Assembly (NCBI RefSeq): GCF_030345095.1
Contig: NZ_CP128360.1
Span: forward strand, 3,472,001-3,536,000
Reading direction: 5' to 3'
DNA: 64,000 bases
From: Solwaraspora sp. WMMA2056
Lineage (GTDB): Bacteria; Actinomycetota; Actinomycetes; Mycobacteriales; Micromonosporaceae
Shown: piece by piece, positions 17,295-43,097 of the stretch
Position numbering within the stretch: position 1 is the stretch's first letter
How the letters are laid out: every line of letters starts with the position of its first letter
The notes under the pieces: model-generated
What the model was told of the DNA's origin: nothing
Database searches by the model: none
Seen by the model: only the letters and a program-made list of their open reading frames with translations
Position numbers and translations under genes: made by a program

Positions 17295-17682
17295 GCCCAA
17301 ATCCGGCGCGGTGTTCGTGTGTCCGGGGACTCTGGATGACGCAGTCGGGAAACCAGCCGCAGGTTTCAATCCGGTGCGGTTTTCGTGTGTCCGGGGACCT
17401 TGATGGTAACATCTGGGGTGGGGCAGTTCTTGTAAGTTTCAATCCGGCGCGGTTTTCGTGTGTCCGGGGACCCTACGGCGCCCCTGACACCCGATTCTTC
17501 CGGTGGTTTCAATCCGGCGCGGTTTTCGTGTGTCCGGGGACCCTACGGCGCCCCTGACACCCGATTCTTCCGGTGGTTTCAATCCGGCGCGGTTTTCGTG
17601 TGTCCGGGGACCGAGAAATCAAGCCCACAAACCGATCCATTCAAGAGTTTCAATCCGGCGCGGTTTTCGTGTGTCCGGGGAC
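17295..17682 (-). CRISPR. CRISPR array 2 (six repeats, five spacers)
   Basis: Repeats at 17295 (degenerate: GCCCAAATCC and GTGTTCG), 17363 (GGTGCGG variant), 17436, 17506, 17576 and 17647-17682, each 36 nt. Spacers are 32, 37, 34, 34 and 35 nt. The third and fourth spacers (17472-17505 and 17542-17575) are identical, so one repeat-spacer unit has been duplicated. Degeneration lies at the left and the leader at the right, giving minus-strand transcription. The array ends about 275 nt from the divergently transcribed RT-cas1-cas2 operon. Confidence 0.97.
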
Positions 17683-17885
17683 CCGTGTCCGAAATGTCGG
17701 GCGGTCTGAGCTGGGCAAACATGGTGCTCCGGGGGCAACCTCTTGTTGATCATGATCTTGAGGGAGCCTCAAATGATCTCCATGGGGAAGGTTTTCGCAG
17801 CTCAGGTTCACTTTGGGATCTTTCCGCCAACCTACCCGGGATCCCGGGCGTGTCGGGGGTTGTCGCAAGGGGCATTTCCGGACAT
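17683..17885 (-). promoter_or_regulatory. CRISPR leader 2
   Basis: Similar to leader 1 across about 200 nt, including GATCATGATC and CCCGGGATCCCGGG. It has one extra C at the repeat junction relative to the other three leaders. The region 17683-17956 should therefore hold back-to-back promoters for array 2 (leftward) and the adaptation operon (rightward). Confidence 0.85.
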
Positions 17886-17956
17886 AAGCTCCTGTTGATC
17901 TCGGCGGTGACGTCGATGCCACCGATTCTATCGGAGTTCGTCCGTCCGATCTCGGC

Positions 17957-18898
17957 ATGAATACCTCTCCTTCCCGGCTGTTGAGTCGGATGTCTGACCA
18001 GCCGACGTTGTGGGCCGCGTGGTCGCGGGTCGCCGCCGGCACCGCACTCGCCGGAGCGGACGGCGTGACCGTCGCCGAGTTCGCCCACCACCTCGGCCCA
18101 CGACTGGAGTCGCTGTCCACGCTGCTGCGCAGTGGCGAATACACCCCGCAACCCCTTCGACTGATGTCCGTCAACCGTGGTGGCGAGCGCCGCGACCGGG
18201 GCATTCCGACCGTCGCCGACCGGGTCGCCCAGCGCGCTTTCCTGCACGTCGCCGGCGACCGGTGGGAGACCCGCCGCGCCGAGGTCAGTTTCGCGTACCA
18301 GCGGGGTCGTTCCTGGGTGGATGCGTTGACGATGGCTCTCGCGTACCGGGACAAGGGGTTGCGCTATGTGGTCCGCGCGGACATCGCCGATTTCTTCGCC
18401 AGCGTCGACCACAAGCTCCTCCACGAGATGGTCAGCGGCAGTCTCGCTGACCCGGCGGTCAGCCGGATCGTACGCGGCTGGTTCACCGCGCCGATGCTGA
18501 CCGCCGCCGGTCTGCGTACCCGGGGTCGGGGTGTTCCCGAAGGCGCGCCGATCAGTCCAACCCTGGCCAATCTCTACCTGCGTGAATTCGACGCCCGGGT
18601 CGACGGCCGGCACGGCCGGCTGGTGCGTTACGCCGACGACCTGGCGCTGTTCTGCCTCGACCTCGACGCGGCGGTCAACGGTGCCCGGCAGATCGGCGCC
18701 GAGCTGGCCGCGCTCAACCTGCGGCTGCACCCGGGCAAGACGCAGATCACCACGTTCGACGCCGGGTTCAGCATGCTCGGCTGGGTGTTCGACGGCGAAC
18801 ACGGCCGGCCCGAGCAGCCCAACGCGGACTGGACCCACCCGCTGCTCAACACTCCGCAGCGGGGCAAGCTGCCGGCCAGCAACGGGAGCCGGCGATGA
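17957..18898 (+). CDS. CRISPR-associated reverse transcriptase (stand-alone)
   Basis: A 313-residue RT related to group II intron and retron-type enzymes. Visible motifs in order are RGIPTVADRVAQRAFL (RT2), RADIADFFASVDH with the catalytic Asp (RT3), GVPEGAPISPTLANLYLREF (RT4), YADDLALFC with the catalytic Asp pair (RT5), NLRLHPGKTQI (RT6) and GFSMLGWVF (RT7). No maturase/X, endonuclease or Cas6 domain is present. Its 3' end overlaps cas1 by 4 nt (ATGA). By analogy with RT-Cas1 systems it would let the Cas1-Cas2 integrase capture spacers from RNA. Unlike the best known cases it is not fused to Cas1. Confidence 0.93.
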   Translation: MNTSPSRLLSRMSDQPTLWAAWSRVAAGTALAGADGVTVAEFAHHLGPRLESLSTLLRSGEYTPQPLRLMSVNRGGERRDRGIPTVADRVAQRAFLHVAGDRWETRRAEVSFAYQRGRSWVDALTMALAYRDKGLRYVVRADIADFFASVDHKLLHEMVSGSLADPAVSRIVRGWFTAPMLTAAGLRTRGRGVPEGAPISPTLANLYLREFDARVDGRHGRLVRYADDLALFCLDLDAAVNGARQIGAELAALNLRLHPGKTQITTFDAGFSMLGWVFDGEHGRPEQPNADWTHPLLNTPQRGKLPASNGSRR

Positions 18899-19887
18899 TC
18901 GGCAAGGCGTTCCACGTGATCGGCCCGGACTGCGTCCTCGGCCGGCGCGACGGTCGGCTCGTCGTGCACCGTGACGGTGTGCTGCGTGCCTCCGCGCCGC
19001 TGACCATGGTCGGCGAGGTCGTCACCACCGGCCGGGTGACCGTCACCCCGCACGCGATGCACAGCATGCTCGCCCACGACATCCCGTTGATCCTGCTCAG
19101 CCGCAACGGCCGACCGCTGGGTCGGCTCGAACCGCCCACCGCCGGGCACATCGCCGCCCGGGTGCGCCAACTCGACCGGCACCGCGACCCGGCCGCCCGG
19201 CTCGACCTGGCCCGCGCCGTCATCCCCGCCAAGATCGCCAACCAGGCGACGCTGCTGCGCCGCCGCGCGAAACGCAGCGACGACCCGGCGACGGTGTGGG
19301 CGGCGGTCACCCGGCTCGCCGAGTTCGAGCAGGCCGCCAGCGCCGCGACCGATCTGGCACAATTGATCGGCATCGAAGGCGCGGCGGCCGGCGCGTACTT
19401 CCGCGCCATCCGGGTGATGACCCCGGCCGAGTACGGCTTCGCCGCCCGCGACCGCAGCCGCCGCGACGTGATCAACGCACTGATCAACTACTGTTCGGCG
19501 CTGCTGCGGGAAACCGTGCACGGGGCGGTCCTCGCCGCCGGGCTCGACCCGTACCTGTCGTTCCTGCACACTCCGAGCCGGGGCCGGCCCACGCTCGCCT
19601 TCGACCTGATGGAGGAGTGGCGGCCGGCGCTGCTGGAGAGCACCGTACTGGCGATGCTCGGCCTGCGTACCGTGACCGACGCCGACTTCGACGGCACCCA
19701 CCTGACACCCGGCGCGACGTCCGCGCTGATCTCGCGGTATCAGGCCCGGCTGGCCATGCCGGCCCGCGAATGGCCGGCCCCCGCCGACCAGCCGACCTAC
19801 CACCAACTGGTACGCCGCCAGGCGTTGCGGCTGCGCGGCTGGCTGCTCGACGAGCAGGCGCGGTACCGGCCGTTCCGCTGGAGGTGA
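18895..19887 (+). CDS. cas1: CRISPR integrase Cas1
   Basis: A 330-residue Cas1. The N-terminal beta-domain (MIGKAFHVIGPDCVLGRRDG) and the C-terminal helical domain are complete. Active-site residues are seen in LIGIEGAAAGAYF (Glu), FLHTPSRGRPTLAFDL (His) and DLMEEWRPALLE (Asp/Glu). Translationally coupled to the RT upstream and 5 nt from the first cas2. It would integrate prespacers at the leader-repeat junction of the four arrays. Confidence 0.96.
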   Translation: MIGKAFHVIGPDCVLGRRDGRLVVHRDGVLRASAPLTMVGEVVTTGRVTVTPHAMHSMLAHDIPLILLSRNGRPLGRLEPPTAGHIAARVRQLDRHRDPAARLDLARAVIPAKIANQATLLRRRAKRSDDPATVWAAVTRLAEFEQAASAATDLAQLIGIEGAAAGAYFRAIRVMTPAEYGFAARDRSRRDVINALINYCSALLRETVHGAVLAAGLDPYLSFLHTPSRGRPTLAFDLMEEWRPALLESTVLAMLGLRTVTDADFDGTHLTPGATSALISRYQARLAMPAREWPAPADQPTYHQLVRRQALRLRGWLLDEQARYRPFRWR

Positions 19888-19892
19888 CCGTC

Positions 19893-20171
19893 ATGCAGCC
19901 CAGCTGGTGGACCGTCACCTTCGACCTGCCCGACGACCGCGACCGCCGGCAGCTGACGACGCTGCTGCGCCGCCACGGCGTACGGGTGCTGTACAGCGTC
20001 TTCACCATCCACATCGGTGACGCACACCTGGACCGGCTGCTCGCCGCCAGCGCCGAACGGTTCACCGGCGGCGGGCACCTGCTGGCCCTGCCGTCCTGCC
20101 CGGACTGCGAAACCGCCGGGTACGGCGTACCGCTGGAGGTCCTCCCCGAGCAGGGCTGGGCCGGCTGGTGA
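19893..20171 (+). CDS. cas2: Cas2-like protein A
   Basis: A 92-residue ferredoxin-fold protein. The first strand WWTVTFDLPDDRDRRQL carries the Cas2 Asp, and GVRVLYSVFTIHIGDAHLDR is the Cas2 beta2 region. A C-terminal tail LPSCPDC contains a CPxC pair not normally seen in Cas2. It lies 5 nt after cas1 and overlaps the second cas2-like gene. Its divergence from Cas2-like protein B suggests the two form a heterodimer. Confidence 0.85.
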   Translation: MQPSWWTVTFDLPDDRDRRQLTTLLRRHGVRVLYSVFTIHIGDAHLDRLLAASAERFTGGGHLLALPSCPDCETAGYGVPLEVLPEQGWAGW

Positions 20172-20458
20172 ACCGGCCGGTGCTCGTCGTCTACGACATC
20201 GTGAACGACCGCCGCCGCGCCGAGGTACGCGCCCGGCTCGGCCCGATCGCCGACCGCTTCCAGTACAGCGGGTGGCTGGTGCCACCGGAGGTCAATCTGA
20301 CCGCGGCCCGGGTCGTCGCCGACCTGGCCGCGGTCGCCGGCCCGGCGGACCGGATCCACGGCCACGCCCCGTGCCCCGGCTGCGCCCGCCGGGCCAGGTG
20401 GCTGCCGGTCCGCCAGCCACACCGCCTCACTCGCCAACCCGGCTGGACCGCCCACTGA
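20168..20458 (+). CDS. cas2: Cas2-like protein B
   Basis: A 96-residue protein starting at a GTG that overlaps the cas2A stop by 4 nt. VLVVYDIVNDRRRAEVRARL and IADRFQYSGW are the textbook Cas2 YDIxDD-R and Q-x-S motifs. The tail APCPGCARRARW again carries a CPxC pair. Having two adjacent, dissimilar Cas2 proteins with one Cas1 is unusual. The operon ends here, and about 65 nt separate it from the next gene. Confidence 0.9.
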   Translation: MNRPVLVVYDIVNDRRRAEVRARLGPIADRFQYSGWLVPPEVNLTAARVVADLAAVAGPADRIHGHAPCPGCARRARWLPVRQPHRLTRQPGWTAH

Positions 20459-20524
20459 ACGTGGCCGCCGATTTACAGGGGTCGCCAACGTGGCTGGCAA
20501 GGCACCGGGCGGTACGGTGCCCGT

Positions 20525-20863: not shown

Positions 20864-21006
20864 ATCAGCCTGACAGCGGGGACGCCGCCATCGGCCGCGA
20901 CGGGGTCGGGACCGATGGCCGCTCGGGCGGGACCTGCTCCTGGCAGGTGCGGCCGAGTAACTTCCGGCTGTCTCGACCGCCGATCGCCGTACGGGCGCGG
21001 GCTGCT

Positions 21007-21204: not shown

Positions 21205-21206
21205 GA

Positions 21207-21365: not shown

Positions 21366-21451
21366 CCCGGGGTGTCGGCTGCCCGTGATTGCCGGTAGGT
21401 TCGCTCGTTGCCGAGTGGTGGAACATCGCTGGTAGGTGGAACGGATGGGGT

Positions 21452-22318: not shown

Positions 22319-22332
22319 GGAGAATCGAGAGC

Positions 22333-24761: not shown

Positions 24762-25586
24762 ATTTCATTCAGGCGCGGTTTTCGTGTGTCCGGGGACACG
24801 AGGATCTCCGCAGCTTCGGCGGGGATGTGGACGACGTTTCAATCCGGCGCGGTTTTCGTGTGTCCGGGGACCAGGTTCGCCTCCGACGCGGGCTGGCGAC
24901 AGGCCCATGGTTCAATCCGGCGCGGTTTTCGTGTGTCCGGGGACACTGGAAGGACGACGGCAAGCGTCCGCTCATCGAGGTTTCAATCCGGCGCGGTTTT
25001 CGTGTGTCCGGGGACACTATGAACACTCAGAACTAGTGAGGGTTCTGAGGGTTTCAATCCGGCGCGGTTTTCGTGTGTCCGGGGACACTGACCAAGTTCG
25101 TGAAAGCCGTGTCCCTACCAAGTTTCAATCCGGCGCGGTTTTCGTGTGTCCGGGGACAGCTATGCGCAGCCGTCGGGGGCTCCCTTGGCGGCTGTTTCAA
25201 TCCGGCGCGGTTTTCGTGTGTCCGGGGACTTTCCATCACTAGTGGAGCTCCACCACCACCCAAAGTTTCAATCCGGCGCGGTTTTCGTGTGTCCGGGGAC
25301 CAACAGGATATACGGCTACTACGCGGAGCTCTTGGAAGGTTTCAATCCGGCGCGGTTTTCGTGTGTCCGGGGACTTTTTTTGCTGGTCAGCCCCCCCTCG
25401 CCAGTTGTGGTTTCAATCCGGCGCGGTTTTCGTGTGTCCGGGGACTGAGAGAGGGAAGGAGGTGAAAAATGGCCGAGAGTTTCAATCCGGCGCGGTTTTC
25501 GTGTGTCCGGGGACTTTTTTCGTGAACCCCCATGATCGGGCATGTTCTTCGTTTCAATCCGGCGCGGTTTTCGTGTGTCCGGGGAC
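24762..25586 (-). CRISPR. CRISPR array 3 (12 repeats, 11 spacers)
   Basis: 36-nt repeats start at 24762 (degenerate, ATTTCATTCA), 24836, 24909 (GGTTCAATCC), 24980, 25051, 25122, 25194, 25265, 25339, 25410, 25479 and 25551. Spacers are 33-38 nt and all distinct. The left-end repeats are the divergent ones and the conserved leader is at the right, so the precursor is read on the minus strand with repeats ending ATTGAAAC. The spacer at 25446-25478 contains AAGGAGGTGAAAAATG, a perfect ribosome site and start codon on the plus strand. Confidence 0.98.
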
Positions 25587-25940
25587 CGTGTCCGAAATGT
25601 CGGGCGGTCTGAGCTGGGCAAACAGGTGGCTCGGAGGGCAACCTCATGATCATCATGATCTTGGTGGTGGCTCGGATGATCTCTGTAAGGTGGGTTTCCG
25701 CAGCTCGGCCGCACTTTGGGATCTTTCCGCCAACCTCCCCGGATCCCGGGCGTGTCGGAGGTTGCCGCAATCGACATTTCGTCGCAACTCCGGCACCTAA
25801 TCTTGCGTACATCGATGGCTTGTCCGTCCTCGATGGAGGCTGTTGTGCCCGGCGTGGCTGTCTCACCTCCCGTCCGGTAATCGCCGACAGGCCGATGTGG
25901 AAATTGTCGCTCACCGGGTTGGCTCCGGCAAGAGGAAACG
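25587..25940 (-). promoter_or_regulatory. CRISPR leader 3
   Basis: About 350 nt closely matching leader 4 (30359-30710), of which the array-proximal 170 nt also match leaders 1 and 2. The array-distal shared part (CTTGCGTACATCGATGGC, CCGATGTGGAAATTGTCGCT) is found only at arrays 3 and 4, pointing to duplication of an array-leader unit. Confidence 0.85.
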
Positions 25941-25962: not shown

Positions 25963-27586
25963 GTAAACATTCACGTCTTGCTGGCGGGTTTGCTGTTGGG
26001 TAGCGTGACTCGCCGGGCCGAGCTGGGGGTGGTTGCCGTCTCGGACCGATCGTGATCTTGTGCCCGGGTGGTTGATCCGGAGGCGCTGTCGCGGGACGAG
26101 CTGATCGCGGTGGTCCGTGATCAGGCCGCTCAGTTGGCGGATCAGACGGCCGAGGTGGAACGGCTACGTGCGGAGTTGGAGCAGATCAAGCGGTTGATCT
26201 CGCGGAACAGCCGAAACTCCTCGATGCCGCCCTTGACCGATGATCTGCCTGGCCGGTCGGGTAGGAGCAAGCCCGCCGGCGGTGGGCGCTCGGGCGGGAA
26301 GAAGCCGGGGCGAGGTAGACAGCCCGGTGCGCCGGGATCGTATCTGCCCTGGTTGGACGAGGCCGACGTCCGGGTGGTTGACCAGCGTCCGTGCGGGCCG
26401 TGCGAGTGCGGGACGGACCTGGCGGGGGCTGTCGACGAGGGGGTGGTGTCGGCCAGTCAGGTCACCGACGTGCCGCTGGTCACCGCGTCGACGGTGGAGT
26501 ACCGGCAGTACCGGGTCCGGTGCGGCTGCGGCCGGAAGCACGTCGCCGCCCCGCCGAAGCAGGCGGGGGTGGGTAACACCCGGGTGTACGGGGCGAACCT
26601 GCGCGCTCTCGCCGTGTACCTGCTGATCGTGCAGCACGTGCCGGTCGAGCGGTGCGTGCGGCTGATCGCCGATCTGGCCGGCACCCGCGTGTCGGCCGGG
26701 TTCGTCCACAAGGTCCTCGCCGCCGTCGCGGCGGCGGTGACCGACATCGTCACGATGATCAAGGCGTTGATCACCCTGGCCGAGGTGGTCCATTTCGACG
26801 AGACCACGATCCGGGCGGGTGCCGCGGGCCGCAACGGGTACGTATGGTCCGCGTCGACCGGCCGGTACACCCTGTACGCGCTGGCTGAGCGTCGCAGCGG
26901 CGAACAGTTCCGCACCATCGGGATCGGGCCGGCGTTCACCGGGGTCGCCGTGCACGACCGGTACACCGTCTACGACCAGGCCGGCAACTTCGCCGACGGG
27001 GTGCGGCACCAACTGTGCCGCGCACATCTGCTCCGCGATCTCGAAGACGCGGCCGAGACCTACCCCGACCACGTCTGGCCGGTCCAGTGCCAGCGGGCGC
27101 TACGCGGCCTGATCCACGCCGCGAACCTCGCCCGCGCCGCCGGACAGGCCGAGATCGACCCCGCCGTGCGTGACCCGCTGGTCCGCGAGTTCCGCGACGG
27201 CGTGATCGTCGGCCGTAAGGACGTCCCCCGCGTCGGCGGCCCCCGCGACAGGCAGCCGCCCGGCCGCAACCTACTCGAGGATCTCCACCACCGCCACGAC
27301 GACGTCCTGCGGTTCTGCTACGACACCACCATTCCGCCGACGAACAACCTCGCCGAGCGTGACCTACGGCCGAACAAGACCCAGCAGAAGATCTCCGGCC
27401 GGCTCACCAGCGAGAAAGCCACCCGCGACCGGCTGACCATCCGCAGCTACCTATCCACTGCGGTCAAACACGGCGTCAACGCCATGACCGCACTCCGCGA
27501 CGCCGTCACAGGGAACCCCTGGATGCCGCAGACCGCCCACATCCTCCAGGGCTGACCCCGCGCCCTCACAAGAGGTGAATGTTTAC
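25963..27586 (+). mobile_element. IS66-family insertion sequence
   Basis: Ends are GTAAACATTCAC at 25963-25974 and its reverse complement GTGAATGTTTAC at 27575-27586. The match extends to about 18 bp (then G/C, TCTTG) with one mismatch. The only gene is the TnpC-type transposase; the tnpA/tnpB accessory frames of classical IS66 are absent. The flanking 8-mers AGCGGATC and CATCGGGC differ, so no target duplication remains. Either an adjacent deletion or recombination between two copies followed insertion. Confidence 0.88.
26068..27555 (+). CDS. IS66-family transposase
   Basis: 495 residues from GTG 26068. An N-terminal coiled coil (QAAQLADQTAEVERLRAELE) with the IS66 motif SRNSRNSSMPPLTDD is followed by a zinc-binding region (CGPCECG ... 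CGCGRKH). The DDE catalytic core has Asp in VVHFDETTIRAG, Asp in VAVHDRYTVYD and Glu in PTNNLAERDLRPNKTQQKIS. The frame is intact, so the element may still be active. Confidence 0.95.
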   Translation: MVDPEALSRDELIAVVRDQAAQLADQTAEVERLRAELEQIKRLISRNSRNSSMPPLTDDLPGRSGRSKPAGGGRSGGKKPGRGRQPGAPGSYLPWLDEADVRVVDQRPCGPCECGTDLAGAVDEGVVSASQVTDVPLVTASTVEYRQYRVRCGCGRKHVAAPPKQAGVGNTRVYGANLRALAVYLLIVQHVPVERCVRLIADLAGTRVSAGFVHKVLAAVAAAVTDIVTMIKALITLAEVVHFDETTIRAGAAGRNGYVWSASTGRYTLYALAERRSGEQFRTIGIGPAFTGVAVHDRYTVYDQAGNFADGVRHQLCRAHLLRDLEDAAETYPDHVWPVQCQRALRGLIHAANLARAAGQAEIDPAVRDPLVREFRDGVIVGRKDVPRVGGPRDRQPPGRNLLEDLHHRHDDVLRFCYDTTIPPTNNLAERDLRPNKTQQKISGRLTSEKATRDRLTIRSYLSTAVKHGVNAMTALRDAVTGNPWMPQTAHILQG

Positions 27587-30358: not shown

Positions 30359-30710
30359 CGTGTCCGAAATGTCGGGCGGTCTGAGCTGGGCAAACGTGCT
30401 GCTCCGAGGGCAACCTCATGATCGTCATGATCTCGGTGTCGGCTCAGATGATCTCTGTGAGGTGGGTTTTCGCAGCTCGGGCGTACTTTGGGATCTTTCC
30501 GCCAACCTCCCCCGGATCCCGGGCGTGTCGGAGGTTGTCGCAATCGACATTTCGCCGCAACTCCGGCACTTAATCTTGCGTACATCGATGGCTTGTCCGT
30601 CCTCGATGGATGCTGCAGTGCCCGGCGTGGCTGTCTCACCTCCCGTCCGGTAGTCGTCGACAGGCCGATGTGGAAATTGTCGCTCACCGGGTCGGCTCCG
30701 GCAAGGGAAA
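30359..30710 (-). promoter_or_regulatory. CRISPR leader 4, overlapping the SAVED gene 3' end
   Basis: About 350 nt nearly identical to leader 3. The array-distal end of the conserved block runs into the last codons of the membrane-SAVED gene (stop at 30684), so the gene and leader-array are arranged as one leftward unit. Confidence 0.82.
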
Positions 30711-31811: not shown

Positions 31812-31966
31812 GGTGCCATCTTCGGCGCAGAGTCTGCCACTGTGGAATCAGCTGCCGGGACACGCCGACGATCAGATTTCCGACACGGCGGGACGGGTCG
31901 CTGACTCGCTGGTAACGTCGGCCGGCTCGACGTCATCATCGGAAAGTGATCGGGATAGGACGGACC

Positions 31967-34389: not shown

Positions 34390-34396
34390 GGCCTGT

Positions 34397-36736
34397 TTAC
34401 CGGCGGTGGTTGCCCGGCCCGGGACGGTGGCCGTAGCCGCCGGTACGTCGATTGGCCGGCTGGTCCGTCGTCGGGTCGTACGGCAGCGGCAACGAGTCCG
34501 GATCCGCCGATGTGCCGAGGGACAGCCGCCGACCCCGGCGGCTGTCCCGCTGGTTGCCGATCTTGTCGTTGGCGACCCACCAGTCGTAGGTGGTGGCGCG
34601 CGGCCCGGTCTGCGCCGCCTGGTCCGGGCCGTCGGCGGCGTACCGGGGGTAGTGCACCGGGACACCGACGAAACCGTACGCCGTGTTGAGGAACCCGTCG
34701 CGGACCTCGGGCATCCGCTGTCTCAACATCCCGTCGTACGCGGCGGCCAGCCGTCCGGGCACTTCGGCGCCGTCGGCCGTCGGAGACAGCGACAGTGTGC
34801 GGTACCGGTCCAGCAGCCGGTCGCCGGTGAACAGCCGGGTGTCCGCCCAGTCGACCTCGACCCGTACCGCGCCGAAGCCCAACGGCTTGCCCAGCCCCAG
34901 CTTCAGACAGGCCCCGTCGGGCAGCGACAGCAGCCACAGCAGCGCGGCCAGCTCCATCCGGCTGAAGTTGTCGACCTGCAGTGTCAGCCGGAACGTGGCA
35001 CCGGGTTTCACCCAGTGCGACACCACCGTGCTCACGTCGGGTTTCGCGCCGTCCGGCGCGGCGTACTCCCGGTAGCGGGGCCGCCCGCCGACCTGCGGTT
35101 GCTGCGGGGGGTCGGCCGTCTCCGCCGGCGGCGTCCAGTACGCCGGCGCGCCCGGCACGTCGTCGAGCACCTCGGCGTGGGTCAGGTAGGTCTTGCGGCC
35201 CCGCAGCCGCCGCACGTCCGCCGCGTCCGGGAACCCCTGCGCCGGATGCCGACGCGGGTTGCGCAGCGGCGCACCGGCGCGGTCGCCCAGATAGAACAGG
35301 AACTGGGACGGCTTCGGCGAGTTGAGCGTGACCAGGGTCAACGGGCGCGGGAGCCGGTGGACCGAGTCGGCGCCGGGGGCGTCGTCGCCGTCGGGCGGCA
35401 GCACCCGCAGATGACCCCGGTGGGCCACCCCGTCGTCGTCGCGGCCCTGCCGGACCCAGCCGAACACCCGGTCGGCGGGGGAGAGCAGCGTACGGTCGGT
35501 CGCCGGCCGGTGCGACACCGGCAGACTGGTCAGCGGTGCCCCGGGGAACGGCTTGCGGCCGATCATCGCCGGATACAGCCCGCTCGGACTACCGTGCTCG
35601 TCGTACTCGACGTAGAGGGTGTCCCAGACCTGCAGGGTCCGCCACCGTTTCGCGTCCCACACGTAGCCGCCGTAGTTGCCTTTCAGATCGCGCTCCGTGT
35701 CGTGGGCGCGTTGGTAGGAGTCGATCACCGCCGACCAGCCGGTGACCAGCGACTCGTCGACCTTGATCAGGCTGTAGTCCAGCTCGACGGGGCTGTCGTC
35801 GTCGAGCAGGTCGGTGACGAACAACCGCTCGTCGTGCTTGCCCTTTCCTCGGACTCCGCCGGCAGGGAAGGTGCTGCCGGTCCAGTGCACGACACCGCGA
35901 ACCCGGACCAGCGGATGATCGGCGATGTGCTGTGCGTCCCGGCTGCGGTTCTGCTCCGCCCGGTCGCGGTCCCACTCCGCCCGGTCGCGGGGGACCTCCC
36001 GGCCCGTTTCGACGTACCCGGCCACCCGCCAGAACAGGAAATTCCGACGGCGGTGCCGGGCCAGATAGATCCAGGCGTCGACCTCCCGGCCCCGCTCTTC
36101 GCTGCACCGCGGCGGGTGCGGACCTTCGTTGTGGTTCGACCGCCCACGGCAGCCGCCGGGGCGGTGACAGGCCAGCCGCCGGGGCAGCCACGCCGCCGGA
36201 TGGACCGGCTCGTCGGAATGGCCGTCCGGCCGCAACGCGCGGATCACCTGCAGATGGACCGTACCGTCGCCGACCTCGTCGACCACGGCCGGGCGCAACT
36301 GCAGCGCCGACTTGTCGGCGGTGGCCCGGATCGCCAACTGCTGATCGTGGCCGGTGAACACACCGAACCGGGAGTTGGTGATCGCCTCGTACGCCGACCG
36401 CAGCGCACCCTTGACCGCCGATCCGGCCAGCTGAGGGCGGCCGGCGTGGTCGACCCGTACCGGCAGCGGCGCGTCGGGGCCGTCGCCGTCGGCCGCGCGC
36501 CGCCCGTGGTCCGGGATCAACATCGGCGTACGGGTGGTGACCCGCACCGCGATCGTGCCGCTCCACCGGGTGGCGTCGTACCGGTCGTGGCCGGCGGGTG
36601 GTCCGTCGCGCAGCGGCTCGGGCAGGCCGTCGCGGTCGGGGATCGGGACGAAGCCGTACGGGTTGAGAAAGCTGCGCTCGGCGGGCCGCAACTCCTTCGG
36701 ACCGTCGGCGTCGACGGGTGGGCGCTGGTCACTCAT
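34397..36736 (-). CDS. RAMP-superfamily protein, TIGR03986-like
   Basis: 779 residues, last gene of the effector operon. The N-terminus has the TIGR03986 hallmark SFLNPYGFVPIPDRDG, followed by TIAVRVTTRTPMLIPDHG and LAGSAVKGALRSAYEAITNS, the RAMP (Cas7-like) G-rich/KGxLR element. The middle contains a charged Cys/His segment (CHRPGGCRGRSNHNEGPHPP). The C-terminal half ends with LKLGLGKPLGFGAVRVEVDW, another RAMP Gly-loop, then a disordered tail. TIGR03986 proteins are found in III-D-like loci, where they are thought to be backbone or accessory subunits. The start overlaps the csx19-like stop by 8 nt. Confidence 0.82.
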   Translation of the reverse strand: MSDQRPPVDADGPKELRPAERSFLNPYGFVPIPDRDGLPEPLRDGPPAGHDRYDATRWSGTIAVRVTTRTPMLIPDHGRRAADGDGPDAPLPVRVDHAGRPQLAGSAVKGALRSAYEAITNSRFGVFTGHDQQLAIRATADKSALQLRPAVVDEVGDGTVHLQVIRALRPDGHSDEPVHPAAWLPRRLACHRPGGCRGRSNHNEGPHPPRCSEERGREVDAWIYLARHRRRNFLFWRVAGYVETGREVPRDRAEWDRDRAEQNRSRDAQHIADHPLVRVRGVVHWTGSTFPAGGVRGKGKHDERLFVTDLLDDDSPVELDYSLIKVDESLVTGWSAVIDSYQRAHDTERDLKGNYGGYVWDAKRWRTLQVWDTLYVEYDEHGSPSGLYPAMIGRKPFPGAPLTSLPVSHRPATDRTLLSPADRVFGWVRQGRDDDGVAHRGHLRVLPPDGDDAPGADSVHRLPRPLTLVTLNSPKPSQFLFYLGDRAGAPLRNPRRHPAQGFPDAADVRRLRGRKTYLTHAEVLDDVPGAPAYWTPPAETADPPQQPQVGGRPRYREYAAPDGAKPDVSTVVSHWVKPGATFRLTLQVDNFSRMELAALLWLLSLPDGACLKLGLGKPLGFGAVRVEVDWADTRLFTGDRLLDRYRTLSLSPTADGAEVPGRLAAAYDGMLRQRMPEVRDGFLNTAYGFVGVPVHYPRYAADGPDQAAQTGPRATTYDWWVANDKIGNQRDSRRGRRLSLGTSADPDSLPLPYDPTTDQPANRRTGGYGHRPGPGNHRR

Positions 36737-37283
36737 CGGGCTTTTCCTCCTGGTCCGCGTTGGGGTGTGGGCTGGCGGTCAGCCCGACGAGTCGTTCGTC
36801 GACCACGGCGACGTTGCCGTGCCGGTCCTGCTCGACGTACTCGACGACCCGCAGCCACACGAGATGGCCGTCGGCGGGAGCCGGGCCGTCGACCGGGACG
36901 TGCAGCACCCCGATCCGGGCGTCGTGCAACGCCACCCAGCCCGGCCCGGGAGCCGGGCCGACGACGGTGCCCCACAGCAGCCGCCGGTGTTCCGCCAGCC
37001 CGTCGCCGCCGACACCGGTCGCGGAACCGGACCCGGCGGAGACGTGCCGCCAGCGCAGCTCCTCGGCGGCGGTGAACGCCCGCAGCTCGAACACCCCAGT
37101 CAGGTCCAGGGCCGCCCCGTCCGGGCCGGTCGGCACCCCGTCGACGCCGAACCGGAACCAGCGGACGTCGGCCGGCCGGTAGCAGAACCCGACACCCGCC
37201 GTACCGCCGCTGGCGAAGTCTCGCAGGGCCGGGCCGACCGGGCCGTGCCCCCGGTCGACGACGACCCGTCCAGTGGTGCTCAT
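36729..37283 (-). CDS. Csx19-like (TIGR03984-type) CRISPR-associated protein
   Basis: 184 residues (MSTTGRVVVDRGHGPVGPAL start; GFCYRPADVRWFRFGVDG; ELRAFTAAEELRWRHVSAGS). The length, beta-rich sequence with RWFRF and LRWR motifs, and position directly beside a TIGR03986-like RAMP fit TIGR03984/Csx19, a III-D marker of unknown function. It overlaps the upstream RAMP gene by 4 nt (ATGA) and the downstream gene by 8 nt. The family match is from memory and not computed. Confidence 0.62.
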   Translation of the reverse strand: MSTTGRVVVDRGHGPVGPALRDFASGGTAGVGFCYRPADVRWFRFGVDGVPTGPDGAALDLTGVFELRAFTAAEELRWRHVSAGSGSATGVGGDGLAEHRRLLWGTVVGPAPGPGWVALHDARIGVLHVPVDGPAPADGHLVWLRVVEYVEQDRHGNVAVVDERLVGLTASPHPNADQEEKPDE

Positions 37284-38977
37284 GCGTGCCCTCCTGCCGT
37301 CGCCAGCCGCGCCGCCGTCCGCCGCGCCGTGGCCTGCCATGCCGCCGTCAACGGCGCGGTCACCTCGTCATCGGTCAGCATGTCGGCCAACGACCGGCCG
37401 TCCAGCGTGGTGCACCAGCCGGACCGTGGGCCGGCCCGCAACGTCACCGCGGCCGGGTCGACCCGGACCCCGCCCGAGCCCCGGGTGGTGCCGTGGCCGA
37501 AGCCGATCCAGCCGTCGCAGAGGTCCCGCAGCACCAGCAGCAGCAACGCCAGCGCCGCCCGCCGGTCGTCGTCGGCGCTGGCGGTGGCGTGGGCGCTGGT
37601 CGTCGTCGGATCCTGGTCGAGCCGGTCCACCGCCAGGTCGAGCGTGATCGGCTGCCACGCGCCCGCGTCGGTGGCATGCGGCTGGACCGTCGCGAACAGC
37701 AACGACTCGGCCGCCCCGCCGGTCCAGCGGTCCACCGCCACGTGATGGGCGATGGTGAACCGGATCCCGTCGACGGAGTCGTTGAGTTCGTCGACCGCGC
37801 GTTGCAGCGTGCCCAACGCGGCCCGTACCTGATCGGCCGTGCGTTGCGGCCCGTCGTCGCCGGGCGGATCGGAGCCGTCGTCGCCGGGCGGCTCGGCTCC
37901 ATCGTGGTCGACGGTGTCGGCGAGGCGTCGCTGCAGCAGGCGTACCGCCTCCCACTGCGCCGTCGGCAGGGCGGCGGTGCTGACACAGGTCGCCACCCGC
38001 AGGGCACCCCGGCGGCCGGCCGGCAGCGTCGGATCGTCGCCGTCGCGGGCGGCGGCGGTGCCGAACAGCGCCGCCACCGGCCCCAGCCCGTCGGCCCGCA
38101 TCTGGTCGAGGAACTTCTCCGGGGTGCAGGCACCGGTCACCGTACGGGCGATCCGTTCGGCGTGGCTGCGCAGCACCCCCTTGATCGAGCTGCCCGGCAG
38201 CTCCAGCCGGGTGTGCTCACCGTCATGTCCGGTCAGCGGAAACGCGCTGACCACGTCGCCGTCCGAGCTGACCTGCACCGCCAGCGGTCCGTGCGGACGC
38301 CACGGTACGACGAACCGCAGCACCCCGGGCGGCACCTCGTCCGGGTCGGCGGCCGGCAGGTCGACCGGCTCGCCGCCGGTACGCAGCGCGGCGAGCATCC
38401 CGGCCCGGCTGACCAGATCCGATTCCCGCAGTACGGCGTCGGTCAACCGGACCAGACCGAGCCCACGGGTGACGGCCGCGCCGACGCTGATCCCCGGACC
38501 GCGTAGCCGGGCCGCGACCGCGCCGACGAGGTCCTCCGCCGTGGCGGCGTCGGCGCCGGCCGGCGCGTCGACCACCATCCGGAACGCGAACCGGGTGCCG
38601 GCGGCCAGCACCTCGCGGCTGAACAGATGCCCCCGGGCGGCCACCCCGTGCACCCGGTCGATCGACACGTGGTCGCGCACCTCGACGTACGGCGTGCCGA
38701 CGGCGCAGGCGTCGTCGACCCGTACCCAGGAGGCTTCTCCGCCGGTGCCGTCGCGCTCCGGCGGCAACCCCCACAACCGGTGGTCGGGTACGCCGTCGGC
38801 GCGCAGCGCGGACTGGATCACCCCGGCCAGCGCGGTGCCCGGCAGCAGCGGTCGGCCCGCGCCGTCGCGGGCCTGGACCAGCTGCGCCGGCCCGGCGTCC
38901 AGGCCGCCGATGTGCAGCGGCGCCTGCGCCACCAGGGAGCCGGTCAGCTCCCAGCGCCTGATCACCCGGCGACTCAT
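37280..38977 (-). CDS. Tandem Cas7-like RAMP fusion protein
   Basis: 565 residues with two Csm3/Cas7-like units. Unit 1 (about 8-200) has PLHIGGLDAGPAQLVQARDG, RPLLPGTALAGVIQSALR, SIDRVHGVAARGHLF and VGAAVTRGLGLVRL. Unit 2 (about 225-540) has LELPGSSIKGVLRSHAERIA, RWTGGAAESLLFATV and WIGFGHGTTRGSGGVRV. Each unit has the G(S/T)xLKGxxR-like element and the terminal Gly loop of RAMPs. These would form adjacent backbone positions on crRNA; Asp candidates for RNA cleavage lie in GLDAG and ARDG of unit 1. Four-nt overlaps couple it to both neighbours. Confidence 0.83.
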   Translation of the reverse strand: MSRRVIRRWELTGSLVAQAPLHIGGLDAGPAQLVQARDGAGRPLLPGTALAGVIQSALRADGVPDHRLWGLPPERDGTGGEASWVRVDDACAVGTPYVEVRDHVSIDRVHGVAARGHLFSREVLAAGTRFAFRMVVDAPAGADAATAEDLVGAVAARLRGPGISVGAAVTRGLGLVRLTDAVLRESDLVSRAGMLAALRTGGEPVDLPAADPDEVPPGVLRFVVPWRPHGPLAVQVSSDGDVVSAFPLTGHDGEHTRLELPGSSIKGVLRSHAERIARTVTGACTPEKFLDQMRADGLGPVAALFGTAAARDGDDPTLPAGRRGALRVATCVSTAALPTAQWEAVRLLQRRLADTVDHDGAEPPGDDGSDPPGDDGPQRTADQVRAALGTLQRAVDELNDSVDGIRFTIAHHVAVDRWTGGAAESLLFATVQPHATDAGAWQPITLDLAVDRLDQDPTTTSAHATASADDDRRAALALLLLVLRDLCDGWIGFGHGTTRGSGGVRVDPAAVTLRAGPRSGWCTTLDGRSLADMLTDDEVTAPLTAAWQATARRTAARLATAGGHA

Positions 38978-41469
38978 GCCGGCACCTCCTCAGGGTGGTG
39001 GTTGGCGGCGGGACTGTCCTGCCCCCGGGTGCTGCGGCGCCGCTCGACAGCGGCCCGGACCACCTCGGCGAGCAGCCAGCCGGCGGCCGGTCGGTGCAGT
39101 TCGTCGGCGACACCGGTCGGCGGGCGGACCCCCAGATGCGACCAGAGCACCTCGTCGCCGGAGGCCAACCGGTCCAGCAGGTCGAGCCGCTCGACGCCCC
39201 AGGACTCCCGGCGCGCCCGGTTGCGGCGGGTCGCCGCGATCCAGCCCCGCACCTGGGCCGGGTCGTCGCCTGCGGTGAGCCGGTCGGCGAGGGTACGCAG
39301 CGCGCCGAGCTGCGCCATCGACACGTCCGGCGGCACCAGCAGGTCGCGCAGCGCGTCGTCGGCCACCCGTACCGCTGCGGTCCGGTGCAGCTCCCGCCGC
39401 CAGCCCCGGCGGACCAGCTCGGTGACCAGCGCCGGCGTGGCGCCAGGGCGCCCGGCGGGCGTCTGCGGGCCGGCGGACCGGGACACCGCTGCCGGCTCCG
39501 CTGCCGGCTCCGCCGCCATCGCGACGGTCGTCCGGTCGAGCAGTACGGGTTGCAGCGCCAACCGGCCGTAGCCCTCGGCCGTGCGATCCCCGACCCCGGT
39601 CGCCTCGACGCGGTGCAACGCCTCCTCGTCGGGGACACCGATCATGTCGAACCGGACGACGCTGCCGGCGGCCAGCCCGGTCAGCGACGGGCGCGGCATC
39701 GACCAGCGGCGCTGCCACGACTCGACCCGGCGGGTGGTGAGGAAACCCGCCGGCAGGCGGTCGGGGCTGTCGTCGGGCAACGTCAGGTCCACCCGCAGTG
39801 CTTCGGCGAGCGTGGCCGCCAGTGCCTGCGGGTCGGTCACCGGCTCACCGGCCGGCCCCCGCAGCAACAGGTCCGACAGCAGCCAGACGACCAGCTGCCG
39901 ACTGTCGGTCACGGTGCCCCGCGCGGCCAGGGCGGGCGTGCCCGGGGCGAGTACGTCGACCCTGACCCGCCCGTAGTCGTCCTTGCGGGACCGCCCGATC
40001 GCGTGTTCCCCGTCCAGCCAGTCGGTGTCCAGGTCGGCGTCGGCCGGCAGCCACAACTCGCAGCGCAGCGCCGTGCCGGCGGCGATCGCCTCGTAGACGA
40101 ACAGTCCGCCGGAGTCCTCGGTCGGCCGTTGCGGCCCGTCGTCGACGACGGCGTGCGCCTGCGTCACCAGGTCCACCTCGGCGATGCGGATGCCGCCGGC
40201 ACCGTCGGCGACGCAGAAGCCGACCATCGGCCGCAACCGCTGGCTGTCGTCGGCGCGTGGGGTGAGCAGGTTGACCAGCTGCTGATCCTGGTCGGCGTCC
40301 TTGGGCCGGTGCAGGGCGCGCGGCAGCGGCAGCGACCGCTCGCCGGCGATCTCGACGGTGGCGTTGGTGACCACCGCCCGCCCGCCGGTGATCAGCTCGG
40401 TCGCCTGCTCACCGAGTGCCTTTGCCACCATCGGCAGCAGCGACGTGCCCGGCACGAACCGTTCGGTCAGCACCATGTTGCCGAGCACGCCCCGGGCCAC
40501 CAGCAGCGGAGTCAGCGTGGTGATCCGCAGATCGTGCCGGTGCACCGGCGGGTCGGACATCCGGGCGCCCAGGGTCGCGCCGGCCGGGTCGGCGACAGCC
40601 GACGGCACCACCTCGGCCGGGGACCGGGCCTGGTCGACCCGCTCCAGCAGCGCCCCCAGCCGACGACCGACCTGCTCACCGGCTACGTCCGTACCGGCTG
40701 ATTCGGTGCCGGCTGCGTCGTCACGTGCTGCGTCGTCACCTGCCGCTTCGTCGCCGGCGATGGTCACCCGGCAGCGGCCGGCACCCCGGCGACGCTTGCC
40801 GCCGATCGCGTCGACCAGCCGGGCCGCGGCCCGCAACAGCAGCTCCGCCTCCCACGGCACCGGCGCGCCGACGGCGAGCCCAGGAAAGGTCAGCTGCCAG
40901 TCGGCGGTCACCGTCAACCCGACCGCCGCCCGCTCCTCGACGCGCAACGTGTCGTCGGCGGCGGTGTGCCGGTCGACGTCGATCTGCACCCCGGGGCGCA
41001 GCAGCACGGCCGCCTCCCGGGCCAGCACCCGGCTGCGTTCGTCGAGCGCGGCGATCGCCGCCCGGACCGGGCCGGGCAGGTGCAGCGGCCGGCCCTGCAG
41101 GGCCGCCGGGACCGGGCTGGTGCGTGGCTGCGGCCGGAACTGCCCGCCGGGGTCGAGGCGTTGTCGCGACGACGCGCCCGGCTGGCTGCCGAACACCGCC
41201 TCCACCCAGGCGTACCAGATGCCGTCGGCCGCGCCGTCGGCCAGGCCGACGGCGACGGTCTCGGCCGCGTCGCGCAGCACCGCCGTGAGTGCCTTGCCGC
41301 GCAGCATCGGCAACCCGTCGGCGTCGCGCTGCACCTCGCGGTCCACCGCGCCGTGCCGGGCCGTGCCGGTGCCGCACGCCCAGTCACTGAGGAACACCAC
41401 CGTGACCGTGAACGGCCGGCCGTTGCGCAGACCGGCGCCGGTGTCGTTGATCGGGTCCGGGCCGCTCAT
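38974..41469 (-). CDS. Large RAMP fusion (Cas7-like plus Csx10-like halves)
   Basis: 831 residues. The N-terminal half has TVTVVFLSDWACGTGTARHG, DGLPMLRGKALTAVLRDAAE and IGGKRRRGAGRCRVTIAGDE, a complete RAMP module. After an Ala/Asp-rich linker (about 240-270) a second half begins HDLRITTLTPLLVARGVLGN, with FVPGTSLLPMVAKAL and AIGRSRKDDYGRVRVDV, resembling Csx10/Cas5-like RAMPs. A C-terminal helical extension (LVTELVRRGWRREL onward) could stand in for a small subunit. It overlaps cas10 and the next RAMP by 4 nt each. No separate Cas11 or Cas5 gene exists, so these functions are probably fused here. Confidence 0.8.
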   Translation of the reverse strand: MSGPDPINDTGAGLRNGRPFTVTVVFLSDWACGTGTARHGAVDREVQRDADGLPMLRGKALTAVLRDAAETVAVGLADGAADGIWYAWVEAVFGSQPGASSRQRLDPGGQFRPQPRTSPVPAALQGRPLHLPGPVRAAIAALDERSRVLAREAAVLLRPGVQIDVDRHTAADDTLRVEERAAVGLTVTADWQLTFPGLAVGAPVPWEAELLLRAAARLVDAIGGKRRRGAGRCRVTIAGDEAAGDDAARDDAAGTESAGTDVAGEQVGRRLGALLERVDQARSPAEVVPSAVADPAGATLGARMSDPPVHRHDLRITTLTPLLVARGVLGNMVLTERFVPGTSLLPMVAKALGEQATELITGGRAVVTNATVEIAGERSLPLPRALHRPKDADQDQQLVNLLTPRADDSQRLRPMVGFCVADGAGGIRIAEVDLVTQAHAVVDDGPQRPTEDSGGLFVYEAIAAGTALRCELWLPADADLDTDWLDGEHAIGRSRKDDYGRVRVDVLAPGTPALAARGTVTDSRQLVVWLLSDLLLRGPAGEPVTDPQALAATLAEALRVDLTLPDDSPDRLPAGFLTTRRVESWQRRWSMPRPSLTGLAAGSVVRFDMIGVPDEEALHRVEATGVGDRTAEGYGRLALQPVLLDRTTVAMAAEPAAEPAAVSRSAGPQTPAGRPGATPALVTELVRRGWRRELHRTAAVRVADDALRDLLVPPDVSMAQLGALRTLADRLTAGDDPAQVRGWIAATRRNRARRESWGVERLDLLDRLASGDEVLWSHLGVRPPTGVADELHRPAAGWLLAEVVRAAVERRRSTRGQDSPAANHHPEEVPA

Positions 41470-43097
41470 CAGGCCGCCACCTCCTGCCGGGTCTGCGGCG
41501 CGCCGTTGCCGGGGCGGCCGGACTCCCGGCCGGCGTGCGGTGCGGTGCCGGCCGCCATGTCGATCAGGTCGACCGCGCCGGGGATCCGGCTGAACGAGAC
41601 CGGGCGATCCGCCGACGGCTCCGCGACCAGCAGATTTTCGTCCAGAAAGGACCGGGCTGCGGCCGGGTCGGCCGCCCAGACGCCGACCTGGTCGCTGGCC
41701 CGGACCGCTTCGGTACGGCCGGCGAGCAGCGCCTGGCGCAACCGGTGCAGGGCGCCACGGGCCAGTACGGGCGGGTCGTCCTCGCCGCCCAGCGCCTCGA
41801 GCACCTTCCGCAGCCGGGTGACGTCGTGCGCGTCAGCCCAGCCGCCGGGCTGCGGCGCACCGATCACCACCGGCCCGGGCCACAGCCGCGACTCAGCCAC
41901 GCCGCCGTCGCCATCCGGCACGGTCAGCGGTGCCCGGATCCGGGCCAGACTCTGCCCGACCGAGTCGTGCAGCACATGGAAGTCCAGCGCGCCGCAGCGC
42001 TCGTCGACCCGCTTGATCTGCTTGGCGGAGCCGCACAACTGTTCAGCCAGACCGTACGCCTCGCTGAACGGGTAGTGCGGTTTGACGTACGCGATCCCGG
42101 CGCACGCGGTCAGCCCCGGGTGGCCGACGTCGGCCAGTACCCGGGAGATGGCCTCGTGCCCGGCGGCCGTCTCGGCGAACTTCGCCACGAAGGTCGCGGT
42201 CACCTCGAACGCCGGCCGGGCGTCCATCACCACGGTCACGTCGTCGCCGCCGACGACCAGCGGCAGCAGCCAGCCGGTCCGGTCGGTGACCTGCGCGACG
42301 GCGTACCGCAGGGCGGCGACCGTCACCTCGTCGAGCGCCCGGCTGAAGGCACCCAGGTTGGCCAGGAACTCCTCGCCGGCGTAGGAGTCGGCGATGCTGC
42401 GGAACACGCCGCCGATGCCGTTGCCGTCGGCGTGCATCACCGCCACCCAACCCGCGTGACTCACCCCGTCGGCCAGCTTGGTGGCGTCGACGACCGCCTC
42501 GTTGCCGAGCTTTCCGGCCATCCGGTCCCGGCCGGCGTCGCGTCGCCGCCAGGCCGCGTCCACACTGGCCGCCCTCGGGTGCGGGGTGCCGCCCTCCTCG
42601 CCCATCGCGGTCGACGGCTGCCCCGAGTAGTGACAGGGCCGGGTGAACGGCAGCGTCGGGTGCCGCAGCAGCGGCGACGGTCGGCGGCTGCGCCACGCCG
42701 CCTGCCGCTGGTACGCCCGGGTCAGCGCCGGGCTCAGGTCGGCGTCGTCGGTGACCGGATCCGGGTCGACGGTGCCCCAGATTTCCAGGCCAGGTGCGTC
42801 ATCGAGAGCCCGACGGGTGACCGCCTGCACGACCGCCCTGCCGGTGTGCGCGTCGGCGGCCAGCAGCAGCGCCTTGCCGGAGGCGGCCACAACTATCTCG
42901 ACGACCGGTTCCGGACATCCTTCGTTGATCTTGTCGACGGCATCTTTCACCCACCCGGTGCCAGCCTGGAAGATCAATTCGCTGGCACCGACGTTCACCG
43001 CTTGTTTGTTGCTGGCGAACACGTACGCCTGATTGGCGCCGGTCTCTATCACCACCCAGTGCCGGCGCTTACCGCTCGCTGGAGACTGGCTGCTCAT
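41469..43097 (-). CDS. cas10: Cas10-like protein, HD-less, with GGDD cyclase motif
   Basis: 542 residues, first gene of the operon. The N-terminal Palm strand WVVIETGANQAYVFASNKQA, then NVGASELIF, is the Cmr2/Cas10 signature. VAVMHADGNGIGGVFRSIAD (about 218-237) and VVGGDDVTVVMD (GGDD at 283-286) give a nucleotide-binding palm with the cyclase motif intact. There is no N-terminal HD motif and the length is about half that of usual Cas10, so the DNase domain is absent. It should make cyclic oligoadenylate on target RNA binding, matching the CARF and SAVED genes. The ATG has GAGGGG 6 nt upstream. Confidence 0.88.
   Translation of the reverse strand: MSSQSPASGKRRHWVVIETGANQAYVFASNKQAVNVGASELIFQAGTGWVKDAVDKINEGCPEPVVEIVVAASGKALLLAADAHTGRAVVQAVTRRALDDAPGLEIWGTVDPDPVTDDADLSPALTRAYQRQAAWRSRRPSPLLRHPTLPFTRPCHYSGQPSTAMGEEGGTPHPRAASVDAAWRRRDAGRDRMAGKLGNEAVVDATKLADGVSHAGWVAVMHADGNGIGGVFRSIADSYAGEEFLANLGAFSRALDEVTVAALRYAVAQVTDRTGWLLPLVVGGDDVTVVMDARPAFEVTATFVAKFAETAAGHEAISRVLADVGHPGLTACAGIAYVKPHYPFSEAYGLAEQLCGSAKQIKRVDERCGALDFHVLHDSVGQSLARIRAPLTVPDGDGGVAESRLWPGPVVIGAPQPGGWADAHDVTRLRKVLEALGGEDDPPVLARGALHRLRQALLAGRTEAVRASDQVGVWAADPAAARSFLDENLLVAEPSADRPVSFSRIPGAVDLIDMAAGTAPHAGRESGRPGNGAPQTRQEVAA

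Follow-up and report, generated by a model that had tools for sequence, protein, structure and literature searches.

Does the type III locus of Solwaraspora sp. WMMA2056, which carries a reverse transcriptase (RT), represent an undescribed form of CRISPR (clustered regularly interspaced short palindromic repeats) immunity, and what might a set of ubiquitin-like genes be doing next to it? The window analysed here, 64,000 nucleotides (nt) in length, corresponds to positions 3472001-3536000 of a single-contig genome of 7.01 Mb (72% GC). We conclude that it probably holds a type III-Dv system with an adaptation module of its own (RT, Cas1, Cas2a, and Cas2b), a Cas6 enzyme, and a CRISPR-linked pathway of the Bub kind. 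An initial annotation had listed a stand-alone RT, Cas1, and two Cas2 proteins, which family matches place at 17957-20458, together with an HD-less Cas10, RAMP fusions of several domains, Csx19- and TIGR03986-like genes, and two sensors of the cyclic-nucleotide type; all of these are present, and the Cas10 has a GGDD motif. It had also seen in the combination a strong candidate for an undescribed system. This was wrong for the interference module, because the latter matches III-Dv in content and order, while the adaptation side, with its stand-alone RT clade, two Cas2 families, and linked ubiquitin-like cassette, may indeed be undescribed. Neither cas6 (2157-2984) nor the cassette (14895-17129) was on that first list of features.

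The adaptation module consists of four closely spaced genes:

17957-18898, plus strand: stand-alone RT with a YADD motif (RVT_1, E 2e-22; PADLOC RT model, E 1e-73; also placed by tree)
18895-19887, plus strand: cas1 (PF01867, E 2.8e-71)
19893-20171, plus strand: cas2a (PF09827, E 9e-8, above cut-off; own clade at 96/94)
20168-20458, plus strand: cas2b (PADLOC Cas2 model PDLC01124, E 6e-31; Pfam Cas2 just under cut-off; own clade at 98/92)

RT and cas1 are separate genes overlapping by 4 nt, and no fused Cas1 is present. Whether the RT groups with CRISPR-linked enzymes was a question raised by the initial annotation, and it does: a maximum-likelihood tree with 75 RTs sets 22 CRISPR-linked sequences, including that of the window, apart from 53 others with support of 98/97, and 13 RTs of the window's kind form their own clade at 100/100. 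The 53 were counted as non-CRISPR on the basis of having no Cas1 match in their loci of ~3-4 kb, with the plasmid loci L178 and L179 standing outside that test. The Crossiella locus L091 (RT in two frames) and the broken L103 were kept out of the tree, as were L045, L049, and L054, being duplicates of L097, L100, and the window; filtering by length removed no further sequence. The long-branched rows are L177, L023, L068, L098, L055, L179, and L176. Given that four of the nine other CRISPR RT rows and L098, a row from a metagenome-assembled genome (MAG), are long-branched, the exact sister group of the window's clade is unsure. The notion that the RT belongs to a passing group II intron was rejected on the basis of the tree and of the adjacent Cas1 in every clade locus inspected, except that of genome G114.

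A Cas1 scan of a species-level genome collection, using a two-row alignment, returned 18 loci, this type of Cas1 being found in L090-L098 and in L100, which is gapped; the nearest named relative for the module is Micromonospora antibiotica, whose Cas1 is 93% identical. Together with the window, G079, and G093, these make up the 13 loci counted for the Cas1 clade. Both Cas2 genes follow cas1 in 12 of them, and L100, on a gapped contig, shows Cas2a alone. A tree of 26 Cas2 rows and ~94 columns, from which L090, L095, G079, G093, and the Cas2a of L094 were omitted, places Cas2a and Cas2b in distinct clades, with support of 96/94 and 98/92, respectively. Each of the two alignments has an invariant CxxC pair in all nine rows, and an AlphaFold model of Cas2b (predicted local distance difference test (pLDDT) score of 79.5) matches Cas2 structures with a best E of 7e-4. 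Cas2a and Cas2b may form a heterodimer; with an RT at hand, capture of spacers from RNA is possible. The usual adaptation integrase contains two copies of one Cas2, and a single Cas2 gene is usual, if not strictly defining. Two Cas2 families would depart from this arrangement. Four annotated plasmid RT loci likewise show one Cas2, in contrast to the two families of the window.

RT-associated type III modules have been described before, with a group-II-intron-like RT beside cas1 and cas2 (Silas 2017; Toro 2017), and the window's enzyme falls with the CRISPR RTs in our tree. The actinobacterial clade 10 of Toro 2017 consists, in the available part of that paper, of RT-Cas1 fusions in 12/12 records, whereas the RT of the window is not fused; sequences of clade 10 are absent from our tree.

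The ubiquitin-like cassette sits between the 2-repeat and the 6-repeat array of the locus, beside the RT, and comprises three genes:

14895-15511, plus strand: Ubl-E2, a ubiquitin-like (Ubl) domain followed by a Prok-E2_E domain (Multi_ubiq, E 0.016, below cut-off; Prok-E2_E, E 2.8e-7, above cut-off)
15511-16044, plus strand: JAB-type metalloprotease with an HxHP..S..D motif (Prok-JAB, E 0.005, below cut-off)
16032-17129, plus strand: E1-like ThiF adenylating enzyme (PF00899, E 1.5e-36)

Prok-E2_E exceeds the Pfam cut-off in Protofrankia as well as in the window, and each of the eight JAB sequences inspected, that of the window among them, has the metal motif; a comparison of the JAB protein with PDB sequences found nothing up to E 1. 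At the end of the Ubl, HHARHSKA is conserved (5/5 rows); the protein stops right there in one copy of the Frankia-family genome G902 and continues into a variable tail or the E2 domain in others.

Ubiquitin-like pathways occur in other bacterial defence systems, namely CBASS, Bil, and Bub. The last of these, judging by PDB titles, is what the cassette appears to resemble. The best PDB match of the E1 family profile is Citrobacter BubCD (E 5e-31), the E2 part points to BubB both by profile (E 0.019) and by Foldseek (probability 0.98, E 0.084), and the Ubl part leads weakly to multi-ubiquitin proteins (Foldseek E above 1, probability 0.4-0.7). The Bub structures (9ea5, 9eae, and 9cd2; BubB, BubCD, and multi-ubiquitin) are thus the closest solved relatives of the window's E1 and E2 parts, and the pathway likewise combines E1-like, JAB, E2-like, and Ubl components. 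It differs in that JAB and E1 are separate genes in the window (15511-16044 and 16032-17129), in contrast to BubCD, regarded as a JAB-E1 fusion from its name, length, and match position; moreover, the cassette has one Ubl domain, which is fused to E2 in several members, and lies within CRISPR loci.

How firmly is this cassette tied to the CRISPR locus? We compared 13 genomes of the RT clade: the window (G000), G079, G093, G114, G855 (Protofrankia coriariae, same contig as L097), and G949-G956, which comprise two Actinomadura species, a MAG (G951), M. antibiotica, A. latina, A. livida, Frankia californiensis, and Crossiella. Of these, 11, spanning four families, have the E1 of the cassette at least, and G114 and the MAG G951 lack it. 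Outside this set, the cassette also occurs alongside remnants of Cas1 or RT in G815 and G902, and in G815 it is flanked by arrays of about 30 and 20 repeats. In 12 of the 13 cassette-bearing genomes it shares a stretch with RT/Cas1, with III-D genes, or with arrays whose repeat is of this type; the 13th, F. californiensis, has it on a 12 kb contig that does not allow linkage to be assessed. The cassette's neighbours in Micromonospora, Crossiella, and Actinomadura are the RT, arrays, or III-D genes, and in Protofrankia one strand reads Ubl-E2, JAB, E1, RT, cas1, cas2a, and cas2b, followed by a 3-repeat array and cas6.

Three overlapping samples covered the class, the Frankia family, and the Micromonosporaceae. 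The Ubl-E2 family was detected at E 1e-10 in 5 of 394 genomes of the class sample, all five of which carry this clade's RT or Cas1, whole or as a remnant. In the Frankia-family sample, four of 35 genomes have it, and it is missing from the nine whose Cas1 matches are all of the weaker sort (at most 161 bits). No match to Ubl-E2 was found in the plasmid collection. Close relatives of E1 (more than 500 bits) are present in 3 of 200 Micromonosporaceae genomes, each time with the RT module, and weaker E1 matches in 18 more.

These data bear on the possibility that the cassette is an independent anti-phage system of the Bub type, which shares a defence island with the CRISPR genes and acts on phage or host proteins instead. 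Bub proteins are found outside CRISPR in solved structures, judging from PDB titles, and in G902, G815, and M. antibiotica the cassette decays independently of the adaptation genes. Furthermore, among eight of the weaker Micromonosporaceae E1 loci, a JAB-like gene lies near E1 at five, accompanied at two of them by an E2-like gene, and three show E1 alone, with no RT or Cas match within 3.4-3.9 kb. This argues for independence and thus also weighs against a dedicated CRISPR pathway. However, the close family is seen only with this RT/Cas1 clade or its remnants (5/5, 4/4, and 3/3 in the overlapping samples), and in Protofrankia the gap between E1 and the longest RT frame is 43 nt. We therefore hold an independent system to be quite unlikely. 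It is also conceivable that the locus is an ordinary RT-associated III-D system, in which the second Cas2 and the cassette are functionless hitchhikers. Stand-alone-RT type III systems have been described in other groups, according to the available part of Toro 2017, and the effector set is already known. Against functionless passengers stand the two Cas2 families, both of which are maintained across four actinobacterial families, each with conserved motifs of its own, and a cassette linkage that recurs even though the cassette proteins are only ~45-71% identical between genera; we consider this explanation very unlikely. It is likely that the cassette is functionally part of the CRISPR system.

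Several observations weigh against this view, the first group of which concerns the proteins themselves. The Ubl match is weak (Multi_ubiq at E 0.016, below cut-off), and so is the structure model of Ubl-E2 (pLDDT 62; best Foldseek E 0.084). In the E1 alignment (n=4), the cysteines of two CxxC-type pairs are the only invariant ones, and no cysteine is shared by all E2-like domains, one being found in four of five rows and none in Crossiella. With cysteines distributed in this way, a classical thioester relay is unlikely. The second group concerns damage. In the window, Ubl-E2 is frame-shifted, with the Ubl in the open reading frame 14895-15263 and the E2 in a frame ending at 15511; this is either a true lesion or a sequencing error, and Ubl-E2 is a single open frame in two genomes of the same genus. 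In M. antibiotica, an array with another repeat replaces most of Ubl-E2 and the JAB gene is broken; Actinomadura 7K507 retains the E2 part and the end of the Ubl, most of the Ubl being missing; and in CNU-125, Ubl and E2 are in different frames. Given this damage, the cassette is dispensable at times or is being lost in some lines. Finally, the two modules can be found apart: one adaptation locus of A. latina (L094) has no cassette within 10 kb, while the genome has one beside another copy; the MAG G951 carries RT, Cas1, and two Cas2 genes without a cassette; and G902 and G815 have a cassette, damaged in G902, with a broken RT or Cas1.

In the M. antibiotica locus (L090), the intruding array has a different repeat of 30 nt and occupies about 5690-6650, taking the place of most of Ubl-E2 beside the broken JAB gene. 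Cas1 matches there in two frames, and the strain's own arrays are reduced to two copies and a single one in the stretches fetched.

What does the system do with a target once it has been recognized? The interference genes are all encoded on the minus strand:

34397-36736, minus strand: Cas7-insertion (TIGR03986, E 6.5e-64, above cut-off; 8s9t_E, E 8e-76)
36729-37340, minus strand: csx19 (TIGR03984, E 2e-24, above cut-off; 8s9t_B, E 6e-13)
37280-38977, minus strand: Cas7-2x, a double Cas7 (8s9t_D, E 1.8e-67)
38974-41469, minus strand: Cas7-Cas5-Cas11 (8s9t_A, E 4e-88)
41469-43097, minus strand: Cas10 with GGDD kept and without an HD domain (8s9t_C, E 4e-51)

For all five effector genes (34397-43097), the best PDB matches are chains of the Synechocystis III-Dv complex 8s9t. 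The operon of Synechocystis PCC 6803 has the same order as that of the window, i.e. cas10, cas7-cas5-cas11, cas7-2x, csx19, and cas7-insertion, with cas6 and arrays nearby (PMC11026444, available part). In content and order, the effector operon is, as judged from sequence, a known III-Dv variant, and a new effector subtype is ruled out by the five-gene match. The initial annotation had named a full match to a defined subtype as an argument against novelty, and it is the effector genes to which this applies. The window system differs from its Synechocystis counterpart in being actinobacterial and in its linkage to an RT, two Cas2 genes, and the Ubl cassette.

The GGDD motif is present in 8/8 Cas10 rows compared; no HD family match was found in Cas10, and its N terminus aligns to 8s9t_C only from residue 20 onward. 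Target cutting by the Synechocystis complex involves three Cas7 aspartates, D26 of Cas7-5-11 and D33 and D246 of Cas7-2x (PMC11026444). D26 is kept in the window's genus and absent from Crossiella and two Actinomadura rows. In Cas7-2x, unlike in Synechocystis, the D246 column holds Ser and the D33 column is not Asp in the window, another Asp being located nearby (the loop alignments are uncertain). These substitutions suggest weaker target cutting and perhaps a greater reliance on cyclic oligoadenylate signalling. As a side observation, the Cas7 cleavage aspartates (37280-41469) differ between actinobacterial and cyanobacterial III-Dv, which suggests fewer active sites in the former. A broader search for III-D-type Cas10 gave a match in 13 of the 14 genomes of the comparison set; in A. 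livida, there was no III-D-type Cas10 at E 1e-10, though Cas7-type pieces adjoin the adaptation module.

Two putative signalling effectors lie next to the interference genes:

30684-31811, minus strand: SAVED effector with N-terminal hydrophobic (transmembrane-like) stretches (SAVED, E 1e-8, above cut-off; PADLOC SAVED6--SAVED_TM, E 8e-37, and 'CorA-like', E 5e-111)
31946-34366, plus strand: Csm6-2-like CARF-HEPN protein (PADLOC CARF fused to diverged HEPN, E 4e-61)

The Csm6-2-like protein has 806 amino acids, most of which are covered by PADLOC CARF/HEPN models, and a C-terminal HEPN-type R...H motif is visible by eye; against PDB sequences, there was no match up to E 0.01. Csm6-2, a single CARF-HEPN-CARF-HEPN chain of about 795 amino acids, has been reported from 16 III-D loci (Hoikkala 2024, PMC11229360, available part). 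This earlier paper gave cA6 as its activator, while the enzyme of Actinomyces procaprae is preferentially activated by cA5 (PMC13187428, available part). A Csm6-2-like protein beside a membrane effector is already known from actinobacterial III-D loci, where the latter was called 'CorA'; the window's membrane protein differs in carrying a detectable SAVED domain. For the 'CorA' beside Csm6-2 in Actinomyces, Hoikkala 2024 guessed that it senses cyclic oligoadenylate and not SAM-AMP, a guess which the SAVED matches in the 'CorA-like' protein at 30684-31811 would support. Two tandem csm6-2-like genes are present in G079 (L074/L075) and in G093 (L077/L078), and one in the window.

The signalling arm offers another role for the cassette, that is, as a downstream effector or regulator of components such as Csm6-2 or the SAVED membrane protein, rather than of adaptation. 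CBASS also combines SAVED proteins with E1, E2, and JAB genes, Ubl-E2 follows the SAVED-TM gene in Actinomadura 7K507 and A. livida, and CNU-125 has III-D effector genes on the contig of its cassette. However, an array or the RT is the next feature after E1 in most loci. G114 (L080-L082) keeps the RT, effectors, Csm6-2, and SAVED-TM, with arrays down to two repeats and a single one, yet neither cas1 nor cas2 was found in the 55 kb examined, and its genome has no cassette. A downstream role is therefore unlikely in our estimation.

Returning to a III-Dv system with a linked adaptation module and cassette, how might its parts work together? From the known families, Cas6 would release CRISPR RNAs (crRNAs), the III-Dv complex would bind target RNA and Cas10 produce cyclic oligoadenylates, to which the Csm6-2-like RNase and the SAVED membrane protein would respond. 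RT, Cas1, and the Cas2a-Cas2b pair may capture spacers, possibly from transcripts. As for the cassette, the E1-like enzyme could adenylate the Ubl, the E2-like partner could transfer it to an adaptation protein (RT, Cas1, or a Cas2), and the JAB protein could mature or remove it, such that tagging switches or restricts spacer capture. Sequence and comparison provide the gene content and order, the kinship of the RT, the two Cas2 families, and the repeated linkage; the mechanism of the cassette is a proposal that we add to them. That the adaptation machinery is the target of the cassette is a tentative and rather doubtful choice, and it is somewhat unlikely that events unfold exactly as in the specific version, in which Ubl conjugation takes part in adaptation by tagging an integrase of RT and Cas1 with a Cas2a-Cas2b heterodimer at its core, and so governs the capture of spacers, which may come from RNA.

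A functional partnership between CRISPR and cassette is likely all the same. Limited literature searches, which covered neither supplements nor most subscription papers, turned up neither a cassette nor a Cas2 pair of this kind, the available part of PMC9048733 included. The main text of the 2025 classification paper contains none of 'ubiquitin', 'ThiF', 'JAB', or 'two cas2', and the accessible portion of PMC11229360 does not contain 'ubiquitin'. If the link is functional, protein tagging would constitute a new layer of control over immune memory and may help to determine how bacteria record invaders.

The arrays and their leaders complete the locus, together with a distant cas6 gene:

2157-2984, minus strand: cas6, crRNA-processing endoribonuclease (PF10040, E 5e-14; CRISPR_Cas6_N, E 1.5e-7; both above cut-off)
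13079-13194, minus strand: CRISPR array of 2 repeats (repeat sense strand minus, leader to the right)
13195-13400 (approximate limits), minus strand: leader copy of the 2-repeat array, resembling the other three leaders
17295-17682, minus strand: CRISPR array of 6 repeats
17683-17880, minus strand: leader copy of the 6-repeat array
24762-25586, minus strand: CRISPR array of 12 repeats
25587-25937, minus strand: leader copy of the array at 24762-25586
29515-30358, minus strand: CRISPR array of 12 repeats
30359-30710, minus strand: leader copy of the array at 29515-30358, 93% identical to the copy at 25.6 kb over 300 positions

A single 36-nt repeat forms all four arrays, with 2, 6, 12, and 12 copies. 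Four arrays sharing one repeat had been annotated within a region beginning at 17295; the number is real, and the fourth (13079-13194, two repeats) lies to the left of that region. Allowing up to three mismatches, the repeat occurs 30 times in the window, compared to a mean of 0.00 in 100 shuffles, and the same 30 copies are the only ones in the whole 7.01 Mb genome. In crRNA sense, the 3' end of the repeat is ATTGAAAC on the minus strand; based on this end, the degenerate left-side repeats, and the common right flank, we infer that the arrays run leftward from right-hand leaders. Each array has its leader on the high-coordinate side, and the leaders resemble one another, with pairwise identities of 72-90% across the first 100 aligned positions. 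In other genomes, cas6 directly follows cas2b (Crossiella) or the 3-repeat array (Protofrankia).

The spacers indicate an active memory, in that the window and G079 have none in common among 26 and 26 different ones, with RTs that are 98% and Cas1 proteins that are 99% identical. The 63 different spacers of five strains (26, 26, 9, 1, and 1) have a mean GC content of 60.4%, while 2000 random draws of equal-length pieces from the window averaged 72.4%, none being as low as the spacers. This fits foreign sources and not host transcripts, and it is silent on whether spacers originate from RNA or DNA. Spacers of the two 12-repeat arrays gave no match to phages, the two shorter arrays and other collections being outside this search. 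Rfam, at gathering thresholds, and tRNA scans found nothing in the window.

A few further features of the locus deserve mention. Between 22787 and 30710, duplication affects the array blocks (24.8-25.9 kb and 29.5-30.7 kb) as well as parts of their left flanks, the copies being 76-95% identical and partly reordered, and an IS66 transposase (26068-27555) lies between the two blocks. A protein of 1195 amino acids with a strong coding signal (45895-49482, plus strand) had no Pfam or PADLOC match and is retained near the cas operon in G093. The frame at 13526-15031 on the minus strand was rejected as a single gene, since its start overlaps Ubl-E2 on the opposite strand. Its portion at about 13526-14700 (minus strand) belongs to no Pfam family; relatives of the C-terminal part occur close to III-D loci in Actinomadura, Protofrankia, and a Frankia-family genome, and the protein is possibly another associated gene.

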